Source: an uncultured Eubacteriales bacterium
Lineage (GTDB): Bacteria > Bacillota > Clostridia > TANB77 > CAG-508
Direction of reading: 5' to 3'
Assembly: GCA_949288175.1 (NCBI GenBank)
Contig: CASEIV010000003.1
Location: forward strand, 88,043 to 152,042
Length of the DNA: 64,000 nt
The position numbers and the translations under genes were made by a program. The notes below the pieces were generated by a model, which saw only the letters and a list, made by a program, of their open reading frames with translations, searched no databases and had not been told where the DNA came from. Below are positions 24,009 through 37,620 of this stretch, one piece after another. Within the stretch, counting starts at the first letter, position 1; each line of letters starts with the position of its first letter.

Positions 24009-24038
24009 TTGACTTTTTATTTATATATATATTATAAT
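24009..24038 (+). promoter_or_regulatory. Promoter of the counter-transcript, cassette 1
   Basis: TTGACT, 18 nt, TATAAT on the plus strand. It points into the 3' end of the 37-aa peptide gene and would start RNA at about 24045. Confidence 0.65.
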
Positions 24039-24044
24039 AAATAT

Positions 24045-24137
24045 AGGAAATGACAATTCCACAAACGTGGTTTTGCCGAATTTAGTTGTAAAAAACTCAC
24101 ACCTAACTCGCCAAAGTTACAGATGTGAGCTTTTTTT
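24045..24137 (+). ncRNA. Predicted counter-transcribed RNA of peptide cassette 1
   Basis: A transcript from the TTGACT/TATAAT promoter would begin ATATAGGAAATGAC, pass through GTGGTTTTGCC and stop at the shared hairpin CTCACA...TGTGAG plus seven T residues, giving about 90 nt. It overlaps the 3' end of the peptide mRNA and shares a 5' sequence with it. No reading frame is evident. The prediction rests on promoter, terminator and arrangement only. Confidence 0.55.
24096..24137. terminator. Shared bidirectional terminator, cassette 1
   Basis: CTCACACCT and AGATGTGAG pair (one wobble), with AACT/AGTT extending the stem inside. A seven-T run follows on the plus strand and a six-A run precedes it, so both converging transcripts can end here. 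Confidence 0.75.
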
Positions 24138-24249
24138 ATTTATGTAGTTGCTTATCAACCCAGTTCTTGTAAAGAACTGCTGTCAAGGCAACGTTTAATG
24201 TTAAAGATAACATTAATGCTATTATTAAAAATAGTATCACTTTAACCAT
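24136..24249 (-). CDS. 37-residue hydrophobic peptide, candidate type I toxin (cassette 1)
   Basis: The short frame reads MVKVILFLIIALMLSLTLNV, then ALTAVLYKNWVDKQLHK: one membrane helix and a short charged tail, the usual shape of type I toxins (Fst, TxpA). The ribosome site GGTGGTG can pair with CCACC in the leader, which would hide it. The promoter is TAGACA-17-TAGAAT at 24331-24359. An ATG two codons upstream (24255) is an alternative start. The stop lies at the shared terminator. No database match was checked. Confidence 0.6.
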   Translation of the reverse strand: MVKVILFLIIALMLSLTLNVALTAVLYKNWVDKQLHK

Positions 24250-24330
24250 AAACATCACCACCCTTCCTACGAAAAATCGTAAAATTGGTGGCAAAACCAC
24301 ATCTGCTAACTATCATTTCCTATGTTATTT

Positions 24331-24359
24331 ATTCTACAATATTCTTTTTATTTTGTCTA
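24331..24359 (-). promoter_or_regulatory. Promoter of the peptide mRNA, cassette 1
   Basis: On the minus strand TAGACA, 17 nt, TAGAAT. It would start RNA near 24323, giving a leader of about 75 nt before the peptide start. Confidence 0.6.
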
Positions 24360-24514: not shown

Positions 24515-25990
24515 TCAATAGTCCTGAATGATAATAAATGGTGTTCCACTATTTTCATCTTCTTCAATCCAATAATATACAATACCATAACTACTATTTC
24601 TTTTTTGTAATTTAGTATAACTGTTAAAATATGATTTTTCACTATCTTTTAAATTATAATCATTAAAATAATATATTCCATTCAAATATTCCACATCTTT
24701 TATATAAATCGTTTCTTCTCCATTAGAATCTGTAAATTTACTATAAACTCTAATAGAAGATTTTTCACCTCTTTCTGTATCTGCTATAAATTCATCTAGC
24801 TTTTCAATATTATTTGATTTTACTTTATTATTTTCTAATACAATATAACCATCACTTATTGCATTTTCTACGCTATAAGATTTTGGAAGTTCCTCTGTAC
24901 TAATACATCCTTCCACTTCTACTTTTCTATTTTCAATACTGACATCTGCATTTTCTCTCAATAGTGACCTATCTACAATAGCATACCAGATATTATTATT
25001 TTTGTTATAGTCAGGATTTTCTTTTTGTTTCATCTTTATATGTGTAGTGGTTTCATCTGCTGTTATCTCCGAAATAGTTAAATCTTTTTCATGTAGTTGT
25101 CTTACATTTTCATTTACAATTATAATAACAAAATTTTCTTCAAAATTGATTTCTTCTAAGTTCGGTAATTCCTCAACTCTTGATTTATATTTGTTATACT
25201 CTTCTTGGTCGCTTATTATTTTGTGATACAATCTTGGCTTTTGATTCCAAGTCATATCATTTGCCATTAAATCTGTTTCATATGTAGTTATTCCATCTCC
25301 CAAGTCGAATAAGCCTCTTGATGTAATTTCCTCTTGCTTTTTTATGTATTTATTATAAATTGTAACACCCGCATAAACGATTCCACTTAATAAAGCAGTT
25401 GTGCAAATGATGATAATAAAAATTTTTAGTACTTTATTCATTTCACTAACTCCTTTCTTTAGCAGGATTTTTCTTAATTGTTTTTTTCCTCTATGAATTA
25501 ATGTTTTAGTATTTTGGAGAGTTTGTCCTAATATTTCTGATGTTTCTTTATATGATAATCCTTCAATATTAACTAAATATATAGCATTTTTATATTTTTC
25601 ATCTAGCTCTTCTATACTGTTTAATACTTCTTTTTTTGTTTCTTCACTTGTTATAATTTCCAATACATCTTTATCTACTTTTTTACTTTCATTTAAAATA
25701 TATTGTTCATTAATTTCTTCTCTTCTTTTTTCTATATTTAGATAATTATATGCCTTACTTTTTGCAACTAAATATATATAATACTTAAAAGAACTATTTT
25801 CTTTCATTTTATTTTGCATAACATATATAAAAGTTTCTTGTGTTATGTCTTCTGCTTTTTGATAATCCTTTACTATGTTATAAATAAAATATTCTATTCT
25901 ATTTTTATATTTCTTGTAAATATATTCAAATGCTTGTTTTTCTCCATTTAAATAATCATTATATAATTTTTTATCTAAATCTCTCTCCAT
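24515..25990 (-). CDS. ECF sigma factor fused to a membrane-anchored extracytoplasmic domain
   Basis: Residues 1-180 are an ECF sigma factor: region 2 in YKKYKNRIEYFIYNIVKDYQKAEDITQETFIYVMQ and region 4 in LDEKYKNAIYLVNIEGLSYKETSEILGQTLQNTKTLIHRGKKQL. Residues 188-210 form a membrane segment and the remaining 280 residues an exported domain of unknown type. The junction codons for KKGVSEM (residues 178-184) are also AAAGGAG plus an ATG at 25441, so a separate membrane protein could be made from the same frame. This may be a stop-loss fusion, or a tethered sigma factor. Total length 491 aa. Confidence 0.82.
   Translation of the reverse strand: MERDLDKKLYNDYLNGEKQAFEYIYKKYKNRIEYFIYNIVKDYQKAEDITQETFIYVMQNKMKENSSFKYYIYLVAKSKAYNYLNIEKRREEINEQYILNESKKVDKDVLEIITSEETKKEVLNSIEELDEKYKNAIYLVNIEGLSYKETSEILGQTLQNTKTLIHRGKKQLRKILLKKGVSEMNKVLKIFIIIICTTALLSGIVYAGVTIYNKYIKKQEEITSRGLFDLGDGITTYETDLMANDMTWNQKPRLYHKIISDQEEYNKYKSRVEELPNLEEINFEENFVIIIVNENVRQLHEKDLTISEITADETTTHIKMKQKENPDYNKNNNIWYAIVDRSLLRENADVSIENRKVEVEGCISTEELPKSYSVENAISDGYIVLENNKVKSNNIEKLDEFIADTERGEKSSIRVYSKFTDSNGEETIYIKDVEYLNGIYYFNDYNLKDSEKSYFNSYTKLQKRNSSYGIVYYWIEEDENSGTPFIIIQDY
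25441..25441 (-). promoter_or_regulatory. Possible internal translation start in the sigma fusion
   Basis: AAAGGAG followed by 8 nt and ATG AAT AAA lies in frame, inside the 491-codon gene, directly before the membrane segment. Product: about 308 residues with an N-terminal anchor. Confidence 0.5.
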
Positions 25991-34184: not shown

Positions 34185-34268
34185 TTAAAATGGAAATGAA
34201 AATAAAGCAACTATTAAGAAAATAGCTGAAGTATTTATGTAATTTGTTTTTTTCAAATAGTTTTTCAT
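34185..34268 (-). CDS. 27-residue peptide, possible small membrane protein
   Basis: The frame reads MKNYLKKTNYINTSAIFLIV, then ALFSFPF: a short basic start and a hydrophobic run of about 13 residues. AGGAG lies 7 nt before the ATG. A clear promoter (TTGCAA-18-TATAAT) and a terminator frame it, so a small transcript is well supported. The function is unknown. It lies between carA and the carboxymuconolactone-decarboxylase-like gene. Confidence 0.55.
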   Translation of the reverse strand: MKNYLKKTNYINTSAIFLIVALFSFPF

Positions 34269-34305
34269 TTTCTTTCTCCTCATATAATATATTTATATCT
34301 TTACT

Positions 34306-34335
34306 ATTATATCAGAAACTATATACAGATTGCAA
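34306..34335 (-). promoter_or_regulatory. Promoter of the 27-aa peptide gene
   Basis: On the minus strand TTGCAA, 18 nt, TATAAT, preceded by GA. It would start RNA about 30 nt before the peptide start codon. Confidence 0.6.
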
Positions 34336-34403
34336 TATTTTTTATTATTTTTTTACATCTGTTGGCTTCTTTATTGAGAACAATAGAGGGCTTTTGTTTT
34401 GTA

Positions 34404-34733
34404 TTATTCCTCATCTTCCCCATAAATTTTATATACTATTGGAAATGCTTTCCAAGCCAAAGGCCAACCACAATAAAATGCTAATTGTGTAATTACTTCT
34501 ACTATTTCTGTTTTGGTAATTCCATGTGCTTTTCCCATGACAATATGAGATTCAAATGGTCCTTCTACAATTCCTTTTCCAAATAGAGCTGCAATGGTTA
34601 TCATACTTCTATCTCTTGGATTTAATTTATCCTCCCTTGACCAAATTTCTCCAAATAACACATCATCATTTAATTCTGCAAATTTTGGAGCCAATTTTCC
34701 TAAATTATCTCTCCCTGCTGTTTGTTTTTCCAT
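34404..34733 (-). CDS. Carboxymuconolactone decarboxylase family protein
   Basis: A 109-residue CMD-family protein: ALFGKGIVEGPFESHIVMGKAHGITKTEIVEVITQLAFYCGWPLAWKAFPI. The family's FESHI.MGKAHGITKTEI...YCGWP signature is intact. Members include decarboxylases and AhpD-like disulphide reductases; this one has a single cysteine, so the AhpD CxxC reaction is unlikely. Strong AAGGAGG ribosome site. The role is not known. Confidence 0.85.
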   Translation of the reverse strand: MEKQTAGRDNLGKLAPKFAELNDDVLFGEIWSREDKLNPRDRSMITIAALFGKGIVEGPFESHIVMGKAHGITKTEIVEVITQLAFYCGWPLAWKAFPIVYKIYGEDEE

Positions 34734-34739
34734 AATACA

Positions 34740-35048
34740 TTCCTCCTTAAAATTTATTATTTAATATATATATATATATATATTATACATGTCAAAACTC
34801 CTGGCTTATCTAAGGCATATGTTTTTAATTGTTCTAATTGCCATGCAATTGATTTTTTTACTTTATCTAAATTCGTTGTCCAACCATAACTTCCTGTTTT
34901 TTAATTTGCTCCAAAATGAATTTGGTACATAACTTCATTATATAGAAAAATATTCATAGAATTTTTCATTTTTTATGCATACTTATTTTATATCACTTAG
35001 AGTTTACTTTAAGTCATTCGCCTTCAGCAAGAAATAGATAAGTTAAAT
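34740..35048. other. AT-rich gap with a decayed coding remnant
   Basis: The stretch holds a short TA repeat (about 34766-34785). On the minus strand from about 34901 to 34787 a coding-like stretch reads KTGSYGWTTNLDKVKKSIAW, then QLEQLKTYALDKPGV, with a stop just upstream and no start. It looks like the tail of a lost gene that I cannot identify. Confidence 0.35.
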
Positions 35049-35666
35049 ATGAATAATAAAGAATTGCGATTACAAAAGTTACTTGATTATAGTAATTTAG
35101 GAGAAAGATTCTTTGAAAAGAACTTTGAAACATATCAAATAAATTATAATAATGCTAAAGCTTTTGAAACTGCTAAAAGATTTATTACAAACTTTGAAAT
35201 CGCAAATAAAAGAGGCACTGGAATTATATTTTACGGTCCATATGGAGTCGGTAAAACACATTTAGCTTGTAGCATTGCAAATGAATTAATAAAAATGCAG
35301 AAATCAGTTGTATTTGGATCAACAATTAAACTTTTTGGAATAATAAAGAAAAGCTATAATAATGAAATTCAAGAAAATGAATCAAAAATAATTTCAGAAT
35401 TTATAAATTGTGATGTTTTAATAATTGATGATTTAGGAAAAGAAAAACCTAGTGAATGGGTGCTAGAAAAATTATACTATATCATTAATGAAAGATATGA
35501 ACATAACAAACCAATTATAATTACTACTAATTTTACTGAGAATCAACTTATAGACATTTTTACAGTCGGAAAGAATAAATCTTCGATTGAAGCAATTATG
35601 AGCAGATTAAATGAAATATGTTTGACTGTCAAGATATTGGATAATGACTATAGATATAAACCATGA
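35049..35666 (+). CDS. DnaC/IstB-like AAA+ ATPase, orphan
   Basis: A 205-residue AAA+ protein: the Walker A is IIFYGPYGVGKTHLACSIANEL and the Walker B is CDVLIIDDLGKEKPSEWVLEKLYYIINERYEHNKPIIITTNF, matching DnaC-like helicase loaders of phages and mobile elements. The C-terminal SRLNEICLTVKI is typical. It has no replication or transposase neighbours, and sits next to a peptide cassette and broken genes, which suggests a remnant of an integrated element. Confidence 0.85.
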   Translation: MNNKELRLQKLLDYSNLGERFFEKNFETYQINYNNAKAFETAKRFITNFEIANKRGTGIIFYGPYGVGKTHLACSIANELIKMQKSVVFGSTIKLFGIIKKSYNNEIQENESKIISEFINCDVLIIDDLGKEKPSEWVLEKLYYIINERYEHNKPIIITTNFTENQLIDIFTVGKNKSSIEAIMSRLNEICLTVKILDNDYRYKP

Positions 35667-35691
35667 AAATCACAAACTTTTGTTTTTGTTG

Positions 35692-35720
35692 TTGACTTTT
35701 ACCTAATTCCTTTGTATAAT
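35692..35720 (+). promoter_or_regulatory. Promoter of the peptide mRNA, cassette 2
   Basis: TTGACT, 17 nt, TATAAT, giving RNA from about 35727 and a leader of about 65 nt before the peptide start. Confidence 0.7.
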
Positions 35721-35791
35721 CTTAAAAGAAAATAAGGAAAAGCAGAGTGTGGTATCATCTCAATTCTTATAAAGAAAGTGAGGTGATGCAT

Positions 35792-35929
35792 ATGTTAGAA
35801 GAGGCATTATTGCAATTATTGATTTTGTCATTAATTACGAATATAGCTCTTGCTATCATCTCTTTTGTTTTAATTATAGCTTTAGTTATAATTACATACA
35901 AAGAGAATCACATCTCTGCTAGCCATTAG
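35792..35929 (+). CDS. 45-residue hydrophobic peptide, candidate type I toxin (cassette 2)
   Basis: The peptide reads MLEEALLQLLILSLITNIAL, then AIISFVLIIALVIITYKENH and ISASH: one long membrane helix with a short polar end. GAGGTG precedes the ATG at 35792 by 6 nt, and the leader segment TCATCTCA can pair with TGAGGTGA, hiding the ribosome site. A longer frame from 35747 begins within the leader repeat and is less likely. The hairpin terminator overlaps the last codons. Confidence 0.6.
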   Translation: MLEEALLQLLILSLITNIALAIISFVLIIALVIITYKENHISASH

Positions 35930-35945
35930 AGATGCGATTCTTATA
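35902..35945. terminator. Shared hairpin of cassette 2
   Basis: AGAATCACATCTCT and AGAGATGCGATTCT pair with one mismatch around GCTAGCCATT. T-rich bases follow on both strands, so the converging transcripts can both end here. It overlaps the peptide stop. Confidence 0.65.
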
Positions 35946-35988
35946 TCAATTTTATAATGGTACCACACTTTGTGGCTCCTTGTTTTCT
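35903..35988 (-). ncRNA. Predicted counter-transcribed RNA of peptide cassette 2
   Basis: From a consensus promoter the RNA would begin near 35988, run through GAGCCACAAAGTGTGGTACC, and stop at the shared hairpin, giving about 85 nt. It overlaps the 3' end of the peptide mRNA and repeats its 5' sequence. There is no reading frame of note. Confidence 0.55.
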
Positions 35989-35994
35989 ATATTT

Positions 35995-36023
35995 ATTATA
36001 GTATATATTTTTTTATATGTCAA
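35995..36023 (-). promoter_or_regulatory. Promoter of the counter-transcript, cassette 2
   Basis: On the minus strand TTGACA, 17 nt, TATAAT, an exact match to the housekeeping consensus. Confidence 0.75.
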
Positions 36024-36027
36024 TTAT

Positions 36028-36234
36028 TTATAACTTAAAAAATGTGTCTTTATTTCTATCTATAAGGTTATGTGCCATTTCCATTTCTTCTGGTTTATTA
36101 ATATAAATAATTTTAAACTTTCCTGATGTTGTTTTATTTATATAATCATGTTTAACTTCTATTATATGTATCAATCCCCAATATAGCCATTTACCATCAA
36201 TATTTTCAACTAAAAAATTTCTTACTGGTGGCAT
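36028..36234 (-). CDS. Small hypothetical protein
   Basis: Not recognised. 68 residues: MPPVRNFLVENIDGKWLYWG, then LIHIIEVKHDYINKTTSGKF and KIIYINKPEEMEMAHNLIDR, then NKDTFFKL. Beta-strand-rich and soluble, without known motifs. Its position 17 nt downstream of the broken IMPase gene, and the decayed state of the area, leave it open whether it is expressed. Confidence 0.5.
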   Translation of the reverse strand: MPPVRNFLVENIDGKWLYWGLIHIIEVKHDYINKTTSGKFKIIYINKPEEMEMAHNLIDRNKDTFFKL

Positions 36235-36251
36235 TTGATAGTTCCTATCTA

Positions 36252-37038
36252 TTAAAATTCGATAGTATTTTTTAAAGTTTCTACCACTTCATTATGTATT
36301 TTTCCATTAGTTACAAGTAAAGTATCTATTTTATCTCGTTTATTTCCTTTTAAATTTGTGATTTTACCACCAGACTCTTTTACAAACAATTTTCCAGCTG
36401 CTGAACTCAATCCAATGCTAGGCTTAACATTTATCACACCATCTATTTTTCCTGAAGCACACCAACACAATTCAATTGCACTAGAAACTATTAATCTTAA
36501 TCCTCTTACTTTTGAAGCTAGACTTTCTTCAACTCTTAATATATCTCTAATATGTTTTTCATTATAATGAGAAGTTAAACAAAATGATAGAATACTATTA
36601 CATAATTTTTCATTGTTTGAAACTTTGAGTCTTTCATTATTGCAAAATGCCCCCTGTCCATTAAAAGCATAATATACATCTTTTTGATTGTAATCAATCA
36701 CTAAACCGAAAAATAGTTTCATCATTTTTATTTAAAGCAACAGATGTTGAAAATAAAGGAATTCCAGCCGCAAAATTTATTGTTCCATCAATTGGATCAA
36801 TAAACCATACATAATCACTATTTCCAACAATTTTTCCTTTTTCTTCTGAATAAATTGAATGTTCTGGAAACCATTCTCTAATTTTTTCAATAATTTTTGT
36901 CTCCATATAAATATCAACATCTGTTACAATATCGTTCAATTCCTTATTCTTTATGTTTCTATCTAATTTCGTTGCCTCATCATAACTTGTTAAGATAACA
37001 TTTTTTAATTCTTCTACTAAATTAATATCTATATTCAT
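36252..37038 (-). pseudogene. Inositol monophosphatase family gene, frameshifted
   Basis: Two frames make up one protein of about 260 residues. The first holds IVTDVDIYMETKIIEKIREWFPEHSIYSEEKG and the metal site VWFIDPIDGTINFAAGIP. The second continues GLVIDYNQKDVYYAFNGQGAFCNNERLKVS. Removing the G at 36708 joins them as TIFGLVIDYN. The late motif WDxAAG reads LSSAAG, so the catalytic aspartate is also missing. A decaying gene is likely. Confidence 0.85.
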
Positions 37039-37201
37039 AATATATTGTCCTTTCTTTTATAGATTTATCATACCTTCTTGTAATAGAATTTCAAATTAAT
37101 TTAATGCCCACCATAATATTTTAATATTCGTTGCATTCTCTTATTCTCATCACCAGTTGCACAAGATAGTAATTTTATTTCTTTTATTTTCATCCCTTTC
37201 C

Positions 37202-37620
37202 TTATAAAGAAATATATTCTAATATTTCTTTAAATTCTTTATAACCAAATTTCTCATTAAAATGTCCTGCATTATGTATCAATACTTTTTCGGCTTCTAT
37301 ATTTTTAGAAAAACTTTCTGCATCTGATATTGAAACATAAGGATCATTATCAGAATAAATACAAATTTTTTCTACACAATACTTTGTTAAATCTTTTAAT
37401 TTTTCATCCCCAATATAGAAAGAATCATATAAACTATTGTCTTCTCCAAATTTTGTATTATTAAATCCTGCAACTGTGATTATCCATTTTATTTTGACTT
37501 TATTATCAATTAGAAATTTAATTACAAAAATTCCTCCTAAACTATGTGTTATAAAAATTGTTTCTTCTGATTTTATTTTGTTTAATAGAATTACTATTAT
37601 CTAGTAAATAATTAATGAAT
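37202..37620 (-). pseudogene. Alpha/beta hydrolase (RBBP9/YdeN-like) remnant
   Basis: The minus-strand reading gives KSEETIFITHSLGGIFVIKF (GxSxG-like nucleophile elbow, here THSLGG), then YCVEKICIYSDNDPYVSISDAESF and a terminal IHNAGHFNEKFGYKEFKEILEYISL, which carries the acid and histidine of the triad. The N-terminal part is frameshifted (INYLLDNSNSI reads in another frame) and no start is seen. The stop codon is at 37202. Confidence 0.75.

Follow-up and report, generated by a model that had tools for sequence, protein, structure and literature searches.

A compact cassette of ~330 bases (cassette 2, positions 35692-36023) in the window, the 64-kb stretch of DNA analysed here (G000:C3:88043-152042; 28% G+C, from a source genome of 1.65 Mb in 16 contigs), is probably a type I toxin–antitoxin locus with a 5'–3' lock in the read-through form of its toxin mRNA, a reading made from sequence. 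In it, one hairpin separates the gene of a short peptide from a consensus promoter that points back at the gene, with an inverted repeat outside. Judged by alignment of the copies, one ~40-nt sequence occurs in two versions, as leader of the toxin mRNA and as leader of the antisense RNA, and within any given copy the two co-vary; this likeness and copy-by-copy co-variation are the new observation. The parts of cassette 2, and of a second cassette in the window (cassette 1), are as follows.

35692-35720, + strand: predicted toxin-mRNA promoter TTGACT-17-TATAAT, 11/12 consensus.
35727-35738, + strand: toxin-mRNA leader block I, AGAAAATAAGGA, matching the antisense leader block at 35988-35977.
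35746-35758, + strand: leader block II and 5' arm, AGTGTGGTATCAT, an inverted repeat with 35957-35969.
35755-35762, + strand: anti-Shine–Dalgarno (anti-SD) sequence TCATCTCA, complementary to 35779-35786 and paired there in the fold of the terminated mRNA.
35779-35786, + strand: Shine–Dalgarno (SD) region, TGAGGTGA, read directly from the sequence.
35792 (ATG) to 35929 (stop), + strand: 45-aa hydrophobic peptide MLEEALL...HISASH, the predicted type I toxin.
35854-35862, + strand: second possible anti-SD, TATCATCTC, in the coding region; the fold of the read-through mRNA pairs it with the SD region.
35904-35941, both strands: shared terminator-like hairpin, likely bidirectional; the terminator scan flags it on the + strand only.
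35957-35969, + strand: 3' arm of the inverted repeat, ATGGTACCACACT, which read on the − strand is antisense leader block II.
35963-35975, both strands: small hairpin, the 5' hairpin of the antisense RNA, CCACAAAGTGTGG; on the + strand a second terminator-like site.
35977-35988, − strand: antisense leader block I, AGAAAACAAGGA, co-varying with mRNA block I across copies.
36023-35995, − strand: predicted antisense (antitoxin) promoter TTGACA-17-TATAAT, 12/12 consensus.
24009-24359, − strand: cassette 1, with the plan of cassette 2.
24136-24249, − strand: cassette 1 peptide MVKVILF...DKQLHK, 37 aa.
24290-24300 and 24067-24077, − strand: arms of the cassette 1 inverted repeat.

The two promoters, leader, 45-aa reading frame and hairpin of cassette 2 all lie where the original prediction had placed them, and the second cassette that it reported shares the plan, with cassette 1 on the − strand and cassette 2 on the + strand. 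Both were recovered by a scan for inverted repeats of 9 bp or more, 120-420 bp apart, with converging promoters summing to at least 20/24; across the 64 kb of the window the scan found these two places only, and 15 first-order Markov simulations of the window gave none. Promoter-like sites alone are not rare in such AT-rich DNA (4 found against 4.0 expected by shuffling). The cassette 2 RNA up to 35975 is much stabler than its shuffles (z −6.6). The framing repeats described earlier exist, and their extent had to be redrawn: they are inverted, span ~40 nt and reach the predicted transcript starts, beyond the bounds first given. The structure of the shared hairpin likewise held up, and as a terminator it was flagged in part, since the scan called the + strand of cassette 2, found none in its antisense direction and flagged nothing in either direction of cassette 1.

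The 45-aa reading frame is nested inside a 60-aa frame starting with GTG, and its product has a hydropathy of 2.98 over 19 residues. The gene runs into the hairpin, whose left arm and loop thus code for the peptide tail, ENHISASH. The same overlap is found in the cassette-2-like representatives L011, L118, L132 and L163; in most others the stop codon comes first and then the hairpin (L059 and L139 seem misassigned and L108 is marginal). The predicted antisense RNA starts ~58 nt past the stop codon and would overlap only the last ~26 nt of the reading frame.

The peptides form a widespread family. A profile built from 14 peptides (A1) had matches in 153 of 210 genomes of the same genus (E ≤ 0.01) and in 143 of 243 genomes of the family (E ≤ 0.001), covering 33 of 39 sampled genera. 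An order-wide draw gave 118 of 238 genomes, with two of the listed positives outside the family (G444 and G446), and a class-wide draw gave 4 of 291 (E ≤ 1e-4) and none beyond the order of the window. The cassette 1 peptide, which is absent among the A1 matches listed for the window's own genome, is present in 116 of 204 same-genus genomes. A sequence model made from 46 antisense promoters and their leaders (R1) matched 56 of 58 same-genus genomes (E ≤ 0.001), and RNA anatomy can thus locate such loci. Further copies, for which a genome-wide search had been proposed, were found by R1 in the window's own genome, where it recovered five antisense leaders: those of cassettes 1 and 2, of L179 and L181 (= L068), both with peptide genes, and of the relic L180, which has none. 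RNAalifold reported no consensus pair on the antisense promoter–leader alignment.

In the protein database, 664 of 4797 candidates were relatives at E ≤ 0.01. None of the 120 listed relatives carried a Pfam domain, and one bore a phage name (P0033); carriage by phages or plasmids was rejected, as the one family peptide tried per collection gave no match. The 13 relatives in the named collection were without exception metagenome-assembled and labelled 'uncultured Clostridium/Clostridia'. Pfam includes an Fst family, and the peptides matched no toxin family in Pfam or NCBIfam. Searches of known families and solved structures with the peptides gave no significant match, Rfam gave none for the cassette family, and the family was not recognised in a literature search on its combination of features, which covered titles and the openings of abstracts, mostly of non-subscription articles. 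All 50 representative peptides have a strongly hydrophobic segment and 47 have a lysine or arginine within the last eight residues. The dN/dS (ratio of means) of four peptide groups was 0.40, 0.29, 0.31 and 0.45 (n = 9, 18, 8 and 25), and the peptides are under purifying selection. The idea of a selected family with one plan and diverged peptides is thus borne out, and its stated refutation, that copies elsewhere and conservation in relatives would both be lacking, fails on the same-genus counts.

The leader comparison started from 121 copies, five of which had no recognisable mRNA leader (L014 at 221, L060, L077, L138 and L165), and the remaining 116 leader pairs comprised 114 distinct ones; thinning at 85% identity left 55 representatives, 50 of them with a clear leader. 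In an example pair, the mRNA leader reads ATAGGAAATGAGAATAAGCAGATGTGGTTTGCC and the antisense leader ATAGGAAATGGAGAAACCACAAACGTGGTTTGCC. The two leaders of a pair are alike and yet distinguishable: the contrast of AAGCAG in the mRNA and CCACAA in the antisense RNA has the same direction in all 114 pairs, and the CCACAA motif occurs in 103 of 114 antisense leaders and in none of the 114 mRNA leaders. An invertible segment was ruled out, as the leader motifs were swapped in 0 of 114 pairs. No toxin-side leader went into the model R1, and yet that of cassette 2 is among its hits (E 5e-6).

Leaders of the same copy resemble each other beyond the general likeness. Among the 55 representatives, the mean similarity of own pairs was 16.1 against a permutation mean of 12.5 and a maximum of 13.7 in 5000 permutations, numbers that are not true probabilities since the copies share ancestry. 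Compared with the leaders belonging to the three nearest peptides, the own pair was better in 41 representatives, worse in 13 and equal in one. The signal persists within peptide groups, where own pairs exceeded all 2000 permutations in blocks I and II alike.

The mismatches between the leaders are skewed by strand. When read in the toxin strand, 64 transition mismatches were compatible with G·U pairing and 10 were not (22 vs. 7 in block I and 42 vs. 3 in block II), and counting each mismatch type once per peptide group left 22 compatible vs. 4; a further 21 mismatches, 5 in block I and 16 in block II, pair in neither strand. The incompatible fraction was 0.24 in block I and 0.07 in block II, vs. 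0.33 and 0.15 after permutation within groups, and lay below the permutations in 300 of 300 and 299 of 300 cases, respectively. A transposase end, an operator or gene conversion would show no strand preference, and the pairing is therefore taken to act in a toxin-strand RNA containing both arms. As with the similarity scores, the common ancestry of the copies keeps these permutation figures from being true probabilities, and the skew could also stem from differing constraints on the two leaders.

We propose that the converging near-consensus promoter makes an antitoxin RNA, that the hydrophobic peptide is the toxin and that the terminator-like hairpin would serve both transcripts. Part of the toxin mRNA would cross this hairpin and reach the start of the antisense unit, possibly ending at the small hairpin at 35963-35975. 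In such a read-through mRNA the 3' end would be the complement of the 5' leader, and the molecule would close end to end. Since the antitoxin unit encodes the 3' arm of the lock, the antisense leader would resemble that of the mRNA. In the shorter, terminated mRNA the SD would still be covered, mainly by the anti-SD of the leader. Through its complementarity to hairpin and 3' arm, the antisense RNA would bind the toxin mRNA, which would then stay silent or be degraded; once antisense supply dropped, the peptide would be translated and harm the membrane.

Predicted folding supports the pairing of the arms. Leader and 3' extension of the mRNA paired with z < −2 in 40 of the 50 representatives (10 miss), and in the read-through mRNA the leader paired with the 3' extension with a mean probability above 0.5 in 42. 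That the leader can hide the ribosome site, as suggested before, agrees with the complementarity of TCATCTCA and TGAGGTGA and with the terminated mRNAs, where the mean probability of SD–leader pairing was 0.71 and reached at least 0.5 in 38 of 50 representatives. The lock reduces this pairing to 0.43. The SD is predicted to be unpaired at 0.18 in the full-length and 0.14 in the terminated form, so that folding does not separate the two forms and, with the SD covered in both, is by itself no proof that the lock silences translation. In these models it is not evident that the SD is hidden by the lock, whose role may instead lie in protecting the 5' end or in keeping a reserve of silent message. 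Pairing in trans between the antisense leader and the mRNA leader reached z < −2 in 5 of 50 representatives, so that the hairpin and the 3' arm are the expected sites of antisense action.

A lock requires read-through, and T-runs after the hairpin in the toxin direction count against it. Such runs (at least 6 of 8) followed the hairpin in the toxin direction in 26 of 50 representatives and in the antisense direction in 41, with the hairpin misplaced in several of the rows. A type I toxin–antitoxin system lacking the lock, in which the mRNA stops at the hairpin, the leader anti-SD and pairing at the hairpin provide the control, and the leaders are alike because one duplicated unit gave rise to both promoters with their initial transcribed regions or because both bind a common regulator, would explain the T-runs that many copies have in both directions. 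It would also agree with the terminated form already having its SD covered and with the leader match beginning at the predicted transcript start and extending outside the GTGG arm. A cause at the DNA level would, however, not be expected to produce co-variation within peptide groups or strand-asymmetric mismatches, and we consider this account rather unlikely.

The strengths of the promoters bear on the role of the antisense RNA. After removal of six cassettes without full flanks from the 131 found, the antisense promoter scored at least 11/12 in 121 of 125 copies (the exceptions being L117, L137, L151 and L155) and the toxin promoter in 23, cassette 2 belonging to the copies with an 11/12 toxin-side promoter; random windows gave such promoters in 32 and 33 cases per 2000. 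As read from sequence, a near-consensus antisense promoter combined with a usually weaker toxin promoter suits an antitoxin excess. By eye, the toxin-side promoters of several subfamilies (L036, L015, L019, L180 and L217) have in common a TGTTCGCTTG/TGTTCGCTAG box upstream, possibly a regulator site, which was not seen upstream of cassette 2.

Relics were surveyed in 35 loci derived from strong antisense leaders (L178-L182 and L193-L222, the weaker own-genome L183-L192 being excluded), of which L206 and L216 end at a contig edge and L207 was left unclassified. In five loci (L180, L195, L197, L210 and L221) the antisense promoter persists, whereas the toxin gene is gone or is missing its leader and native start; L180 (G000:C12) retains the mRNA leader, the shared hairpin and the antisense promoter and misses the peptide gene. 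At L221 (G040:C18) the orphan antisense unit lies directly behind a tmRNA gene (631-982). tmRNA genes are a common landing site for mobile elements. Conversely, 4 of 125 toxin genes stand opposite an antisense promoter below 11/12. The asymmetric decay fits the trace expected of a toxin held by its antitoxin, in small numbers and in two samples drawn differently. A non-toxic small membrane protein, serving for instance in signalling or holin-like export and tuned by an antisense RNA, is compatible with multiple chromosomal copies among mixed neighbours, and the toxicity of the peptide is itself a prediction. The strong antisense promoter and the antisense-only relics suit a toxin–antitoxin system better, and we regard the non-toxic role as improbable.

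The cassettes behave as units. Relatives of cassette 2 (L010 and L128-L137, L010 and L136 being one contig) resemble window positions 34201-37500 over ~35666-36039 only, from just beyond one −35 box to just beyond the other, with the toxin promoter adjoining the outer edge of the region common to relatives at other loci. Some of the relatives have flanks in common (e.g., L010/L135 and L129/L130), and none has those of the window. Among the copies of cassette 1, L170, L171, L173 and L176 share the downstream but not the upstream flank of the window, and the rest match over ~390-440 bp only (L168 is the window's own copy). Tandem arrays of two or three cassettes, ~500 bp apart and with different peptides, occur at L021, L058, L064 and L073.

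The location beside mobile-type genes that had been reported is weakly supported, by one adjoining gene in the window, and elsewhere the neighbours are a mix of housekeeping and mobile or defence families. Directly upstream of cassette 2 lies a DnaC/IstB-like ATPase (NCBIfam PRK08116 subfamily; 35049-35666, +). On the other side of the cassette is an inositol monophosphatase-like gene (36252-37038, −) divided between two overlapping frames, the C-terminal part at 36252-36725 and the N-terminal part at 36694-37038, which may reflect a frameshift, a sequencing error or a pseudogene. Elsewhere in the window, a 491-aa protein (24515-25990, −) matches sigma-70/ECF sigma factors over its first ~180 residues and has a long further part. 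A survey of 66 proteins neighbouring representative cassettes found, among the 25 of 67 Pfam and 25 of 58 PHROG families listed, enolase, alanine racemase, Spo0A and ribosomal protein S6 as well as restriction, SMODS, ORF6N and integrase genes.

Copies at unrelated loci, a shared region that stops near both −35 boxes and the tandem copies are what a small MITE-like element would give, its inverted repeats being transposase ends and the peptide a passenger, and in several cassette 2 relatives the AT-rich stretches outside both −35 boxes appear, by eye, alike and inverted. Such an element is compatible with a toxin–antitoxin function. Its promoters would, however, be located outside the arms studied here, and the arms diverge in step within a copy rather than being constant across copies, which makes this origin of the repeats quite improbable.

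The preferred reading, a type I system with a lock, has precedents for its separate parts. In Fst/par of pAD1, a type I toxin–antitoxin family of Firmicutes, the available part of the account (PMC7472228) describes promoters that converge on a bidirectional terminator used by both RNAs, a stem-loop that hides the SD, and direct repeats through which the leaders of toxin and antitoxin become complementary. The family studied here is similar in its converging promoters, short hydrophobic peptide, single intervening hairpin and SD-hiding leader, as far as that part of PMC7472228 extends, but its repeats are inverted (mean similarity 8.3 in direct vs. 16.1 in inverted orientation) and the antisense leader therefore copies the mRNA leader rather than complementing it. 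A locus of the Fst/par type, its antisense RNA pairing with the toxin leader through the repeats and with the hairpin, shares this layout and is highly improbable, given leaders that are alike and not complementary, peptides without a toxin-family match in Pfam or NCBIfam and, on trans pairing through Fst-like direct repeats, its rejection at z < −2 in merely 5 of 50 representatives. The family is not classed as Fst/par because direct repeats were tested for and not found. Scans of Pfam and NCBIfam gave no hit showing homology to the Fst peptide.

The partial account of AapA in PMC6733600 describes an end-to-end lock with anti-SD sequences in the leader and the ORF. As in aapA/IsoA of Helicobacter and in hok/sok, within what that account covers, a 5'–3' long-distance interaction is predicted in the full-length toxin mRNA, and as in aapA there is an anti-SD in the leader and, in cassette 2, also one in the coding region. 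Unlike in aapA/IsoA, the 3' arm of the family sits behind the shared hairpin, in the leader of the predicted antitoxin, which is transcribed toward the toxin gene from its downstream side; IsoA3, in the same part of PMC6733600, is encoded opposite the AapA3 ORF. We do not class the family as AapA because the predicted antisense placement differs, the peptides having been scanned against Pfam and NCBIfam only. The type I loci of Clostridioides difficile (CD2517.1-RCd8 etc.), likewise from Clostridia, with membrane peptides of 34-59 aa and overlapping convergent antisense RNAs in several copies, are similar in kind, likened by description in the accessible part of PMC6563280 rather than by sequence.

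Tentatively, we see a third design of type I control, in which the 3' arm of the lock lies inside the antitoxin leader, the antitoxin mimics the 5' end of the mRNA and competes for the lock, and the cassette, with a peptide that can be exchanged, has spread through an entire clostridial family; this seems possible, if somewhat doubtful. Because either arm can be mutated by itself or in combination with the other, the lock is a sharp, testable prediction, and the antisense-only relics offer a natural test of addiction. The family adds a large predicted toxin–antitoxin group in bacteria met here only as metagenome assemblies. By prediction, it combines an Fst/par-like layout with an AapA/hok-like lock and inverted repeats and, if true, would unite two designs that the available parts of these sources describe apart, a shared bidirectional terminator and an end-to-end mRNA lock.
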